From the NCBI GenBank assembly GCA_900470285.1, contig UCAG01000016.1, positions 124,001 to 188,000 of the forward strand: a stretch of DNA of 64,000 nt, given 5' to 3'. The notes under the pieces are model-generated. The model had not been told where the DNA came from and made no database searches. It saw only the letters and a program-made list of their open reading frames with translations. Position 1 is the first letter of the stretch, and each line of letters begins with the position of its first letter. Made by a program: the position numbers and the translations under genes. This document shows positions 8,388 through 35,500 of the stretch, one piece after another. The DNA comes from Hyphomicrobiales bacterium (lineage in GTDB: Bacteria; Pseudomonadota; Alphaproteobacteria; Rhizobiales; Rhizobiaceae).

Positions 8388-8490
8388 AGAGCGCATCCCG
8401 AAAAGTGCGAAGCGGTTTTCGGACTAAGATGCACGTAAAAACAATTAGATAGAGCGGGCACCATGATCCGATTTGATGTAAACCGCTCTA
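8388..8490 (+). repeat. Dispersed palindromic repeat, family 2
   Basis: Begins AGAGCGCATCCCGAAAAGTG, contains the imperfect palindrome around CCGAAAAGTGCGAAGCGGTTTTCGG, and ends AACCGCTCTA. I recognise the first half as a common intergenic element of Rhizobiales. The ends AGAGCG and CGCTCT are inverted. It sits directly upstream of the N-formylglutamate amidohydrolase-like gene. Confidence 0.75.
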
Positions 8491-30684: not shown

Positions 30685-31280
30685 CCGTCCATATTGTTGA
30701 TGATGATGAAGCCATTCGCGACAGCCTGTCATGGCTGTTTCGCTCCCGTGGCGTGGGCGTTGTCACATGGCCGTCCGGCGAGGCTTTTCTGCAAAACTGG
30801 TCGCCTGATCTTCAAGGCTGTATTTTGCTGGATATGCGTATGGAGGGTATGTCCGGTCTTGAGGTTTTTGACAAGCTCATCAAGCTTCATGCCCGTCAGC
30901 CGGTGATTTTTCTGACCGGACATGGTGATATTCCGCTGGCTGTGGAATGTCTGAAACAGGGCGCCGCGGATTTTCTCGAAAAACCATTCAACGACAATAA
31001 TCTGGTCGACAGGGTTCTGGCCGCCTTGAATAAAGCGAAAGAGCGCGCCAGCACGGACCGACAACGCGACGAATTGCGACGCAAACGCGCCCAACTCTCA
31101 CCACGTGAAAACGAAGTTCTGTCGATGATTTTAGAAGGTCTGCTTAACAAGCAGATTGCCGACAGGCTGGATATCACCGTGCGCACAGTTGAAGTGCATC
31201 GCGCCCATATTATGGAAAAAATGGATGCCCGTAATGCCGTGGAACTGGCGCGGTTAATCAGTTTCAGCGAACAGGGCTAA
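30681..31280 (+). CDS. dctR: Response regulator DctR (FixJ/NarL type)
   Basis: 199 residues. The receiver domain holds the acidic pocket (IVDDDEA), the phosphorylated Asp51 in CILLDMRMEGMSG, the Thr in FLTGHGD and Lys in FLEKPF. The C-terminal LuxR-type helix-turn-helix (LSPRENEVLSMILEGLLNKQIADRL and TVRTVEVHRAHIMEKM) is that of FixJ-like activators. DctR should activate dctPQM when DctS detects dicarboxylates. It is translationally coupled to dctS. It ends at a hairpin. Confidence 0.93.
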   Translation: MTVHIVDDDEAIRDSLSWLFRSRGVGVVTWPSGEAFLQNWSPDLQGCILLDMRMEGMSGLEVFDKLIKLHARQPVIFLTGHGDIPLAVECLKQGAADFLEKPFNDNNLVDRVLAALNKAKERASTDRQRDELRRKRAQLSPRENEVLSMILEGLLNKQIADRLDITVRTVEVHRAHIMEKMDARNAVELARLISFSEQG

Positions 31281-31313
31281 CCGGCAGCGTGGCGCTGTAA
31301 AACACTGCCGGTT
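31279..31313 (+). terminator. Hairpin at the end of dctSR
   Basis: AACCGGCAG pairs with CTGCCGGTT, starting in the dctR stop codon. It is followed by CTCCTCG rather than a T-run, so it may be a weak terminator or 3' stabiliser. Confidence 0.6.
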
Positions 31314-31348
31314 CTCCTCGTCGGAGCATTATTTATCAAAACGCTCTG

Positions 31349-32380
31349 TTAGGTCAGCGGAGTATTAATCATAATGGTACATTCCGGAACATCATCCCAG
31401 ACTTCGCATTGTGTGCTCATATTCACTGAAAGTGTGCGGGCACCAAATAGGCTATATGAATAATTTAACTTCTTCAGTTCGGAGTTTTCATTCAGAACCT
31501 CAATTCTGATTTTCCCGTTGCCCGACGGATATGTCCTTAAACCGATGAGCGTGTTATTCGCCCCGCTGCCGGAAAAATCATCTATCAACTGATCATCTAC
31601 GTAGACATGAACTGTCTGCGGCCTCTCCGCAAAATTAGCATAAGCAGTGAGCCCAAACTTCGTATCAGGCGGTAATAAAAAGGTATATTGACCATCATCA
31701 GCTTTACCGCAATGACAGGAATTACCGCTCAGAATATCATCACTTACGGATACACATGCTTGTATCTTCTGAAATATTACTCCGCCCCACCATTTTTGAA
31801 TTTTTACAGGTCCTTTATCAATACTTCCTGCAACAAAACTATATCTTATATAATTATCACCCTTAAAAATATAAGCATAATTAGCATCATTACTTTTCCA
31901 CGCAAAAAAACTATCAATATTTTCGGTAAATGATGGATATTTTGATATACCATTTATGGAATTTGCTATTGATTGCTTTAAAATCGTACCATCTTCAATA
32001 TTATACGATATGCAATCAGATCCTTTAAAGAATAATACTGTTTTTATAAGAGTCCTGTTATGAATATCAGGCCATTCTGTTGCAGCATCAATACCATTCT
32101 CCGCACCTGTACCAATCAAACCAGGCCAACCCTCAGAAATTTCAGCAGGACCTTCAACAATTATTTTTTCAATTACATCAAATTTCAAATACTTGCTTCC
32201 TTTGAAAAAATACAAGTACCCGTTAACATTAATCACATCATCTATATTATTTTGAAATTCATGAGGAAGACTCCACCAATTATATTCTATAGATTTAGGA
32301 TACCCTGTATTCGCACGATCGATAATATCATTATAAACTATATTATCACCATCATTAAAAAAGAACGATACTGTATGCAT
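31349..32380 (-). CDS. Hemopexin-repeat protein (photopexin-like), AT-rich orphan
   Basis: 343 residues, not a core gene of this group. Residues about 4-200 contain four hemopexin-like repeats with the recurring pattern of hydrophobic strand, FKG(S/D).Y..., GP, (W/Y)P. Examples are YLYFFKGSKYLKFD at 55-68, ENGIDAA at 94-100, VLFFKGSDCISYN at 115-127 and YAYIFKGDNYIRYS at 168-181. Four such repeats make a four-bladed propeller. The remaining 140 residues are Cys-containing and probably beta-rich, with no family I recognise. No signal peptide from the chosen start, ATG 32378-32380 (AGGA 9 bases upstream). Codon use and flanks are strikingly AT-rich, a sign of transfer. Known hemopexin-repeat proteins bind haem, metals or polyamines; function here is unknown. 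Confidence 0.8.
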   Translation of the reverse strand: MHTVSFFFNDGDNIVYNDIIDRANTGYPKSIEYNWWSLPHEFQNNIDDVINVNGYLYFFKGSKYLKFDVIEKIIVEGPAEISEGWPGLIGTGAENGIDAATEWPDIHNRTLIKTVLFFKGSDCISYNIEDGTILKQSIANSINGISKYPSFTENIDSFFAWKSNDANYAYIFKGDNYIRYSFVAGSIDKGPVKIQKWWGGVIFQKIQACVSVSDDILSGNSCHCGKADDGQYTFLLPPDTKFGLTAYANFAERPQTVHVYVDDQLIDDFSGSGANNTLIGLRTYPSGNGKIRIEVLNENSELKKLNYSYSLFGARTLSVNMSTQCEVWDDVPECTIMINTPLT

Positions 32381-32491
32381 AATAAAAAATCCTAATAAAA
32401 AACAATAAATATATAGCAACAAAATAAAAACAAGTAAATATTTTTCTCTTATATAAAAATAATCAAAATTAAAATAAAAATATAAAAAATA

Positions 32492-32524
32492 AACGGCGGT
32501 TATATTCTAAACTTAACCGCCGTT
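32492..32524 (-). terminator. Terminator of pyc
   Basis: AACGGCGGTTA pairs with TAACCGCCGTT. On the minus strand it is followed by TATTTTTTATATTTTTATTTT. It separates pyc from the hemopexin-repeat gene downstream. Confidence 0.88.
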
Positions 32525-32542
32525 CTCAATATTTAAATACAC

Positions 32543-35500
32543 TCAAGAATATACGATCAACAGATCCTTAGCATCAATCTGATCACCGGCGCGCACCAGC
32601 ACTTCCGCCAGCACACCGTCACGTTCGGCGTGGATTGCGGTCTCCATTTTCATCGCCTCAATGGAAAGCAATACATCTCCGGCTTTCACACTTTGCCCGC
32701 TGACAACTGCAACAGTAGAAACAATGCCCGGCATCGGTGCGCCGATATGGGTCTCATTGTTCAGCTCGACTTTACGGCGGGCACCTTTGGCAGCACCGCG
32801 TGTGCGGTCCGGCACTTTGATGCGGCGCGGCTGACCATTCAGTTCAAAGAACACTGTGACCATGCCCTGATCATCAACATCGCCCAAAGCCTGATTGCGG
32901 ATAACCAGTGTCTTGCCGCGCTCAATCTCGACAAAGACTTCCTGTTCCTGCGCCAATCCGTAAAAATAGACCGGTGTCGGCAGCACGCTTGTCGGCCCGT
33001 AAAGGGTCTGTGCGCCAGCAAAATCGGTGAAGACTTTCGGATACATCAGATAGGACGCAAATTCCTGATCGCTGATTTTGCGCTCCAGCTTGGTTTCAAT
33101 CTCTTTGCGCTCTGCTTCCAGATCAGCCGGTTGCAGCAACGCCCCCGGGCGCTCTGTAAACGGCTTTTCGCCCTTCAGCACTTTGGCCTGCAAATCCTTC
33201 GGCCAGCCTGCGGGCGGTTGGCCAAGATCGCCGCGCATCATTGACACCACAGAATCCGGAAAGGCAATATCCTTAGCAGGATTAGTCACATCAGTCGTTG
33301 TCAGATCCTGACTGACCATCATCAGCGCCATATCGCCGACCACTTTGGAAGACGGCGTGACTTTAACAATATCGCCGAACATCAGGTTCACATCGGCATA
33401 GGCTTGTGCCACCTCATGCCAGCGGCTTTCCAACCCCAATGAACGCGCCTGTTCTTTCAGATTGGTGAATTGTCCGCCCGGCATTTCATGCAGATACACT
33501 TCTGATGCAGGGCCTTTCAGATCACTCTCAAAGGCTGCATATTGATTGCGTGCCGCCTCCCAATAAAAGGAAATCCGGCGGATCGAAGCCGGATCAAGCT
33601 GCGGATCGCGCTCACTGCCTGCGAGTGCTTCAACAATCGAGCCGAGGCATGGCTGTGAGGTATTGCCCGACAATGCATCCATCGCCGCATCAACAACATC
33701 CACACCACTCTCCACGGCCGCCAGCACTGTTGCCGCCGCAATACCGGACGTATCATGAGTATGGAAATGGATCGGCAGATCAGTTTCCTGCCGCAAGGCA
33801 GTGAAGAGTTTGCGTGCCGATTGCGGCTTCAGCAGCCCCGCCATGTCTTTAATGGCGATGATATGCGCACCGGCTTTTTCCACCTCACGCGCCAGTTTCA
33901 AATAGTAGTTGAGGTCATATTGCGGGCGTGCCGCATTCATCAAATCGCTGGTATAGCAAATGGCCGCCTCGCAAAGCTTACCCTCTTCCAGCACGGCATC
34001 CATCGACACGCGCATATTCTCAACCCAGTTGAGACTGTCAAAGACGCGGAACAGATCAATGCCGCCGCGTGCTGCTTCACGTACAAATTGCGTCACCACA
34101 TTATCGGGATAGCTCTTATAGCCCACGCCATTGGCACCGCGCAGCAACATCTGCAACAGCAGGTTCGGCGCGCCGTCGCGCACCTTACTCAAACGCTCCC
34201 ACGGATCTTCGGTGAGAAAGCGCATCGCCACATCAAAGGTCGCCCCACCCCAGCATTCCAGCGAGAACAGGTTCGGCAGCAAACGGGCATAGGTTTCGGC
34301 AATCTGCGCAATATCATAAGTACGCATACGTGTGGCCAGCAAAGACTGATGCCCGTCACGCATGGTCGTATCGGTGACCAGTACCCGCTTTTGCTCACGC
34401 ATCCATTGCGCAAATTTCTGCGGCCCCAGTTCTGCCAGTTTTTGACGTGTGCCGCTCTGAATTTCTCCGCCCAGTACATAAGGCACTTTCGGTGCGGCCG
34501 CATTCATGTCCGGCAATGCGCGGCCTTTGGTTTCCGGATGACCATTGACCGTCACATCGGCAATATAGGTCAGAAGCTTGGTCGCACGATCCTGTCGTTT
34601 CACATGCTCGAACAGCTCCGGCGTCGTATCAATAAACCGCGTAGTATATTCGTTACTGCGAAATTTCGGATGCGTAATAATCGCTTCGAGAAAGGTCAGA
34701 TTGGTCGATACGCCGCGGATACGAAACTCCCGCAGTGCACGATGCATACGCAGGATCACCTCTTCCGGTGTCGACGCCCATGCGGTCACTTTCTCCAAGA
34801 GCGGATCATAATAGCGGGTGATGAACGCACCGGAATAAGCCGTACCGCCATCCAGACGAATACCGAAACCTGTTGCACCACGATAAGCGGTAATCCGCCC
34901 GTAATCCGGAATAAAATTCTGCTCCGGATCTTCCGTCGTAATACGGCATTGTAAAGCGTGACCACGCAACACAATCTTGCTCTGCTCCGGCACACCGGAT
35001 TCCGGCGAGCCGATAGCTGCGCCTTCCAGAATACGGATTTGCGCTTTGACGATATCAATGCCGGTGACTTCTTCCGTCACCGTGTGCTCCACCTGAATGC
35101 GCGGGTTGACCTCGATGAAATAGAATTTTCCTGATGTCACATCCATCAGGAACTCAACCGTACCCGCCCCGATATAATTAGTGGCACGGGCAATTTTCAG
35201 CGCATAATCGGCCAGTTCCTGACGCTGCCCATCATTGAGATACGGCGCCGGTGCACGCTCCACCACTTTCTGGTTACGCCGCTGCACGGAACAATCACGC
35301 TCAAACAGATGCACGGCATTGCCATGGGTATCGCCGAGAATCTGCACTTCCACATGGCGCGCATGTTCAATGAGTTTTTCGAGATAGACCTCATCCTTGC
35401 CGAAAGCGGCTTTGGCCTCGCGCTTGGCTTCCGTGACCTCACGCGCCAGATCTTTGGCCTCGCGAATGGCGCGCATACCGCGACCACCGCCGCCCCATGA

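Follow-up and report, generated by a model that had tools for sequence, protein, structure and literature searches.

A photopexin-type gene in an AT-rich insertion next to pyc of a genome taken as Pseudochrobactrum

Introduction

What does a markedly AT-rich, hemopexin-like gene encode when it stands beside pyc in the genome of an alphaproteobacterium, and how did it come to be there? The question is raised by a 64,000-nucleotide stretch of DNA (hereafter the window), for which an earlier note, made from the sequence alone, had described a hemopexin gene of foreign origin. Proteins that join hemopexin (HX) and PA-IIL domains are known as photopexins, and the open-access literature that we found, available as excerpts of the papers cited here, discusses them as proteins of Photorhabdus, bacteria that live with nematodes and kill insects. 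Plu1645 has an HX domain at its N-terminus and a PA-IIL domain at its C-terminus, and PpxA and PpxB have two HX domains joined to PA-IIL (PMC2422844, excerpt). In these excerpts, photopexins are spoken of in terms of the PA-IIL domain or of haem binding (PMC2422844; PMC2266911). Here, we analyse the gene, its relatives, the site at which it lies and the functions that its product may have.

Results

The window contains an intact open reading frame (ORF) of 343 codons on the minus strand (31349-32380, including the stop codon), which encodes a protein of 343 amino acids. An AGGA motif, read by eye, lies 9 nt upstream of the ATG, and in the alignment this ATG falls on the same residue as the starts of single-propeller homologues from Photorhabdus. 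Given this motif and this agreement, an alternative TTG start, which would give 357 amino acids with a hydrophobic N-terminus, is less likely. Read by eye, the 343-residue form shows no evident signal peptide. The AT-richness claimed at the outset was borne out: the 357-amino-acid version has a GC content of 34.8% and a GC3 of 27.9% (35.7% and 28.5% for the 343-amino-acid version), against means of 52.4% and 53.7% (GC3 standard deviation 4.3) in the 40 other window ORFs of at least 150 amino acids, a mechanically chosen set. The corresponding z values are -8.1 for GC and -6.0 for GC3, the lowest GC3 of the 41 ORFs. Of the two parts, the hemopexin part is the more AT-rich (31% GC, with 43% in the PA-IIL part); we considered different donors for the two halves and dropped the idea, since the Photorhabdus copies step in the same direction, albeit more mildly.

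The earlier note took the product for a plain hemopexin protein with four repeats. The gene is real and matches the hemopexin family well over the cut-off (Pfam PF00045, E 3.5e-15, 56.1 bits vs 21.3), but only ~60% of the protein is hemopexin-like, and residues 225-343 constitute a PA-IIL/LecB domain that had been missed (Pfam PF07472, residues 234-340, E 3.1e-19, 69.7 bits vs a cut-off of 21). No NCBIfam model matched the 343-residue protein. Four repeats reappear as four blades in the predicted model described below, whereas only two stretches pass PF00045 on their own. The motifs cited for them are present, with FKG at residues 59-61, 118-120 and 172-174 and ENGIDAA at 94-100, except that the second FKG is followed at the third position by C and not by Y.

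Structure prediction with AlphaFold2 gave a useless model when no alignment was supplied (pLDDT 35.3), and this model was replaced by one based on an alignment of 20 rows, in which the window protein was joined by 19 stretches from Photorhabdus loci (mean pLDDT 86.4, with weak regions at residues 311-330 and 341-343). In this predicted model, residues 1-205 superimpose on the plant albumin 6ix1 with Z 22.5 over 195 residues (rmsd 2.1) and also match the hemopexin domains of matrix metalloproteases (MMPs), and residues 225-343 superimpose on LecB (4ut5) with Z 17.9 over 113 residues (rmsd 2.0). The VIA-align list from which these values derive re-ranks the best chains of Foldseek only, and the absence of other families from it carries no meaning. 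In a library of viral structures, the matches were to unrelated propellers and to regions of insect-virus metalloproteases that resemble hemopexin. By prediction, the protein would thus comprise a four-bladed hemopexin propeller (residues 1-206; 31763..32380, minus strand) and a LecB-fold domain (residues 225-343; 31352..31708, minus strand), separated by a short linker at residues ~218-224 (31709..31729, minus strand) that contains Cys222-His-Cys224 and in which model confidence falls below 50 at residues 219-222. Cysteines also occur in the aligned linker region of the Photorhabdus copies. Blade 2 is the most conserved blade of the propeller, with the Photorhabdus majority residue at 32 of 47 positions (20/45, 28/60 and 23/54 in the other blades).

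By analogy with hemopexin, the protein might act as a haem or iron scavenger, and its propeller does match that of hemopexin (1hxn, Z 16.5 in the model). Serum hemopexin, however, binds haem between two propellers, whereas the window protein has one; its best structural matches in the model are the plant albumins and MMP domains, and at this locus its gene stands next to pyc and the genes of a two-component system, not next to haem-uptake genes. PpxA and PpxB have been called putative haem-binding proteins with a possible part in scavenging iron compounds from insects (PMC2266911, excerpt); for the window protein we consider this role unlikely.

The order of the two domains, hemopexin followed by PA-IIL, each over its Pfam cut-off, equals the published architecture of photopexins (PMC2422844, excerpt), and for this reason we assign the protein to them; with ~40-46% identity extending up to residues 2-343, it is almost certainly a photopexin homologue. 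Six Photorhabdus loci match at 41-45% identity over residues 1-315 or 1/2-342/343, and every Photorhabdus-locus match that covers the propeller falls between 39.5 and 45.6%. Conservation is uneven: identity to eight Photorhabdus proteins is 47-50% in the hemopexin half and 26-36% in the PA-IIL half. A propeller tree separates the window copy together with 35 Photorhabdus units from three Nostoc/Streptomyces hemopexins with support of 100/100, a split to be read with a warning of long branches. The window copy sits on a branch of 1.0 change per site, the tree supports no particular position for it inside or outside the Photorhabdus units, and no close match to it exists among the sampled Photorhabdus copies. 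These identities and the long branch make it unlikely that the gene came recently from a sampled Photorhabdus, and fit an older transfer or a donor outside the sample. In the Photorhabdus loci L019-L024 and in the genus of G581, photopexins form arrays whose members have one to three propellers; the arrays also include ORFs of ~300-378 amino acids with a PA-IIL match in the C-terminal third only. A few of the Photorhabdus copies are listed with an internal stop.

Among the genomes sampled, full-length relatives were seen only in Photorhabdus. At E 0.001, none of 60 relatives of the host carried the gene (1/61 when its own genome is counted), and the six other genomes of the genus, one of them 61% complete, gave no Hemopexin match. 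Two of 385 alphaproteobacteria sampled from the host class matched at E 1e-5, namely the own genome in full and a second one over residues 47-129 only (E 6.5e-8). Across the phylum, PA-IIL matched in four of 398 genomes: the own genome, G381 with two copies, and two genomes with weak matches in very long ORFs. These weak matches (20.8-21.5 bits; L004 of G412 and L005 of G305) lie in ORFs as long as 3270 and 3469 residues, which is unusual for this lectin domain. Photopexins are present in 12 of 12 genomes of a genus that we regard as Photorhabdus on two grounds: its copies cluster with named ones, and the three-propeller ORF of L022, 787 residues long, recurs in one of the genomes. Within the family of this genus (that of G098), photopexins were found in 4 of 392 genomes, every one of them a member of the genus, and in none of the 388 others. 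Scanning genome contigs with the single protein produced 17 pattern matches, none confirmed. An alignment-based scan, which relied on two short PA-IIL patterns and can miss relatives, confirmed 39 of 145 pattern matches and returned 37 loci; the six from Photorhabdus match at full or near full length, and the 31 from Burkholderia/Paraburkholderia match essentially in the PA-IIL part only. Plasmid matches were either hemopexin-only or PA-IIL-only (eight records in the hemopexin search, nine in the PA-IIL search). A phage or defence-related reading was dropped, as phages, PADLOC and PHROGs gave no match.

The gene stands between two convergent genes. One is pyc, as had been stated, with a pyruvate carboxylase match of 1932 bits (TIGR01235). 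The other, previously called dctR, encodes a LuxR-type response regulator whose best NCBIfam model is FixJ, below its cut-off; it adjoins a gene for a PAS histidine kinase, and the name dctR is plausible only through a DctP-type gene that stands beyond the kinase gene. In all six sister genomes the response-regulator gene and pyc are separated by a short spacer only, without the photopexin-type gene, and the window spacer is ~1.2 kb longer. Because the site is empty in six of six sisters, an AT-rich insertion of ~1.2 kb is well supported (31314..32545, no strand assigned, ends approximate), and the photopexin-type gene was very probably inserted in this lineage. The horizontal acquisition proposed in the earlier note is well supported by the same empty site and by the lack of the gene in 60 relatives. 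Neither a target duplication nor mobile-element ends were identified at the edges of the insert. The response regulator-pyc spacer is a tolerant insertion site.

Two hairpins border the insert. The first follows the response-regulator gene (31279..31313, no strand assigned; fold z -1.6, weak as a structure statistic); the short sister spacers also contain a hairpin by eye, which is similar in the nearest sister (L012) and diverged or split in the others. The second combines a 12-bp stem with a U-rich run (32492..32524, minus strand; -19.1 kcal/mol, z -4.55, with none of 200 shuffles as stable) and was not seen by eye in the sister spacers. It is probably the terminator of pyc, either brought with the insertion or formed at its site. 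The last pyc codons differ from those of the nearest sister (VYS in the window, IYA in L012) and mark the edge of the insertion.

An assembly or contamination artefact might place an AT-rich gene, absent from all 60 relatives, in this position. Yet the gene lies within a contig of 256 kb in an assembly with 0.11% contamination, the C-terminal 285 residues of the adjoining pyc product are 95-98% identical to the sister genomes, and the gene has no close match among the sampled Photorhabdus copies; the chance of an artefact is close to negligible. The source genome (G000) comprises 3.81 Mb in 23 contigs, and its assembly yielded no 16S gene. We take the host to be a Pseudochrobactrum (Brucellaceae), an assignment that follows from sequence matching, since a plasmid stretch of P. 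algeriensis (L081, 4,991 bases, ~5 kb) matches the source genome at 96% and sister G005 at 97% over its full length; the other five genomes of the genus match it at 79-88% in two pieces. Of nine matching plasmid records, four are from Pseudochrobactrum. Repeats were encountered as well: a dispersed element of ~70 bp (for example at window ~8390-8455) occurs in at least tens of places across all seven Pseudochrobactrum genomes, with 81-98% identity among the matches listed, and three of the six sisters (L013, L015 and L017) have a palindromic repeat of ~120 bp in the response regulator-pyc spacer, which we take to resemble the Bru-RS repeats of Brucellaceae.

The PA-IIL part invites comparison with LecB, whose ligands are Asn21, Glu95, Asp96, Asp99, Asp101, Asn103, Asp104 and the C-terminal Gly114 (PMC8752737, excerpt). 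In the alignment, the window copy keeps Asn21 and Asp101 and differs at six of these eight positions (Glu95Gln, Asp96Cys, Asp99Trp, Asn103Pro, Asp104Glu and Gly114Thr), although Gly114 acts by its carboxylate and its replacement alone means little. Five of the six positions of the calcium loop are changed; here, the alignment runs gap-free from the C-terminus, through a part in which the model is weak (residues 311-330 and 341-343). All six loop residues are kept in the three yardstick rows, that is, in LecB and in two ORFs, from G381 and a Burkholderia plasmid. Our table of the site comprised matches reaching far enough, with identical rows removed, and contained 37 Photorhabdus rows, of which 35 were readable (one masked and one truncated row were set aside) and eight of these came from propeller-less ORFs; as several rows stem from one genome or from close strains, they are not independent. 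Asn21 is found in 37/37 rows, and among readable rows Asp99 and Asp101 are each kept in 0/35 and Asp104 in 34/35. Some Photorhabdus copies equal the window copy in having five of six loop positions changed, though the set of positions differs and the replacements are milder (Asn, Ser, Asp). Judged from these residues, the two-calcium fucose site is lost in the PA-IIL domains of Photorhabdus and strongly altered in the window copy.

Could the protein nevertheless be a working sugar lectin, in which PA-IIL binds fucose- or mannose-type sugars with one calcium or none and the propeller is an accessory? The LecB fold in the model and a PF07472 score well above the cut-off speak for it, as do the retained Asn21, a main-chain ligand, Asp101 and an in-register C-terminal carboxylate. 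With Glu95, Asp96, Asp99, Asn103, Asp104 and Gly114 replaced (ligands from PMC8752737, excerpt), and with Asp99 and Asp101 absent from every readable Photorhabdus domain, we regard such activity as quite improbable. The loss or alteration of the two-calcium site makes the fucose-lectin label for photopexins appear doubtful, and a scaffold or a binder of another ligand would be the likelier function of the PA-IIL part. The altered site could also represent decay, the gene being a functionless passenger whose PA-IIL site has already eroded. Drift would agree with its single copy in one of seven genomes of the genus (one sister being 61% complete), its foreign composition and a calcium loop with an uncommon Trp and Pro. 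Against it, core propeller residues are kept, and a frame of 343 codons that is intact at ~41-45% identity to its relatives implies that it was somewhere under constraint for long. Decay of this kind seems improbable to us.

Discussion

The photopexin-type gene adds a well-supported member to a known family, in a host in which it was not expected. We tentatively favour a multivalent binder of host ligands as the best explanation of its role. In the tissue of an insect or a nematode, the propeller may bind a host-derived ligand (haem, a metal, a polyamine or a glycoprotein), and the LecB-fold part, its calcium-fucose site lost, may serve as an oligomerising scaffold or bind a new ligand. LecB-type lectins are thought to leave the cell by a non-classical route or upon lysis, and given that no signal peptide is evident, the acquired photopexin might exit in the same manner. 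The explanation as a whole is put forward with the same reserve as the multivalent role.

The family-level loss of the lectin site is, as far as the aligned residues indicate, a fresh observation of this analysis, and we know of no description of LecB calcium-site loss in photopexins. It bears on the reading of photopexins as fucose lectins or iron scavengers across the sampled family. A broader view would see photopexins as multivalent propellers in which a LecB lectin lost its calcium-sugar site and was turned into an oligomerising scaffold or a binder of a new ligand, one of them having moved to a nematode companion that does not kill; we consider this view doubtful as a whole. If true, a companion bacterium would thereby have obtained part of the tool kit that is employed in the insect cadaver.

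Contact with an invertebrate or plant host had been suggested for the gene. For plants we found nothing, and the invertebrate alternative gains indirect support from the Photorhabdus relatives and from the occurrence of Pseudochrobactrum in a nematode. Pseudochrobactrum and Ochrobactrum are frequent members of the microbiota of Steinernema carpocapsae, an insect-killing nematode; Ochrobactrum strains, as cited in the same paper, live with Photorhabdus in Heterorhabditis; and the Pseudochrobactrum strain that this paper tested was not lethal to insects (PMC7041241, excerpt). Insect homogenate raises the activity of the plu1645 promoter 10.1-fold (PMC2422844, excerpt). Given these two lines of evidence, contact between the Pseudochrobactrum and Photorhabdus lineages is plausible, with the literature concerning other strains. 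Our search of the open-access literature found no report of a photopexin in Pseudochrobactrum, and the copy described here now makes it testable whether nematode companions share host-interaction genes.

How does the protein compare with known systems? Plant PA2-type albumins (LS24, CP4 and 6ix1) and the hemopexin domains of MMPs and vitronectin share the four-bladed propeller (Z 15.7-22.5 in the model), but at 16-29% identity and, in the matched chains as described, without PA-IIL. Plasmid-encoded proteins of Nostoc and Streptomyces share hemopexin repeats at 24-32% identity; the two scanned differ in their C-terminal parts, which contain DUF4114 in the Nostoc protein (L009) and only a sub-threshold Amidase_2 match in the Streptomyces protein (L078). 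The Nostoc protein (L009, 2986-4170) has four very similar hemopexin repeats, and its gene lies near genes for a sulfotransferase and an adenylyl-sulfate kinase. LecB/PA-IIL lectins of Pseudomonas, Ralstonia, Chromobacterium and Burkholderia have the same beta-sandwich fold (Z 14-18 in the model) and belong to PF07472, whereas the window protein does not conserve their two-calcium fucose site and adds a fused propeller. The closest counterparts are the photopexins of Photorhabdus (Plu1645, and PpxA/PpxB, that is, Plu4242/Plu4243), with which it shares the propeller, the C-terminal PA-IIL domain and ~41-45% identity over the full length. In contrast to their arrays, the window gene is single and resides in an alphaproteobacterium; it encodes one propeller where PpxA and PpxB are described with two HX domains (PMC2422844, excerpt), and its calcium loop contains both a Trp and a Pro, neither of which occurs at these positions in the readable Photorhabdus rows.
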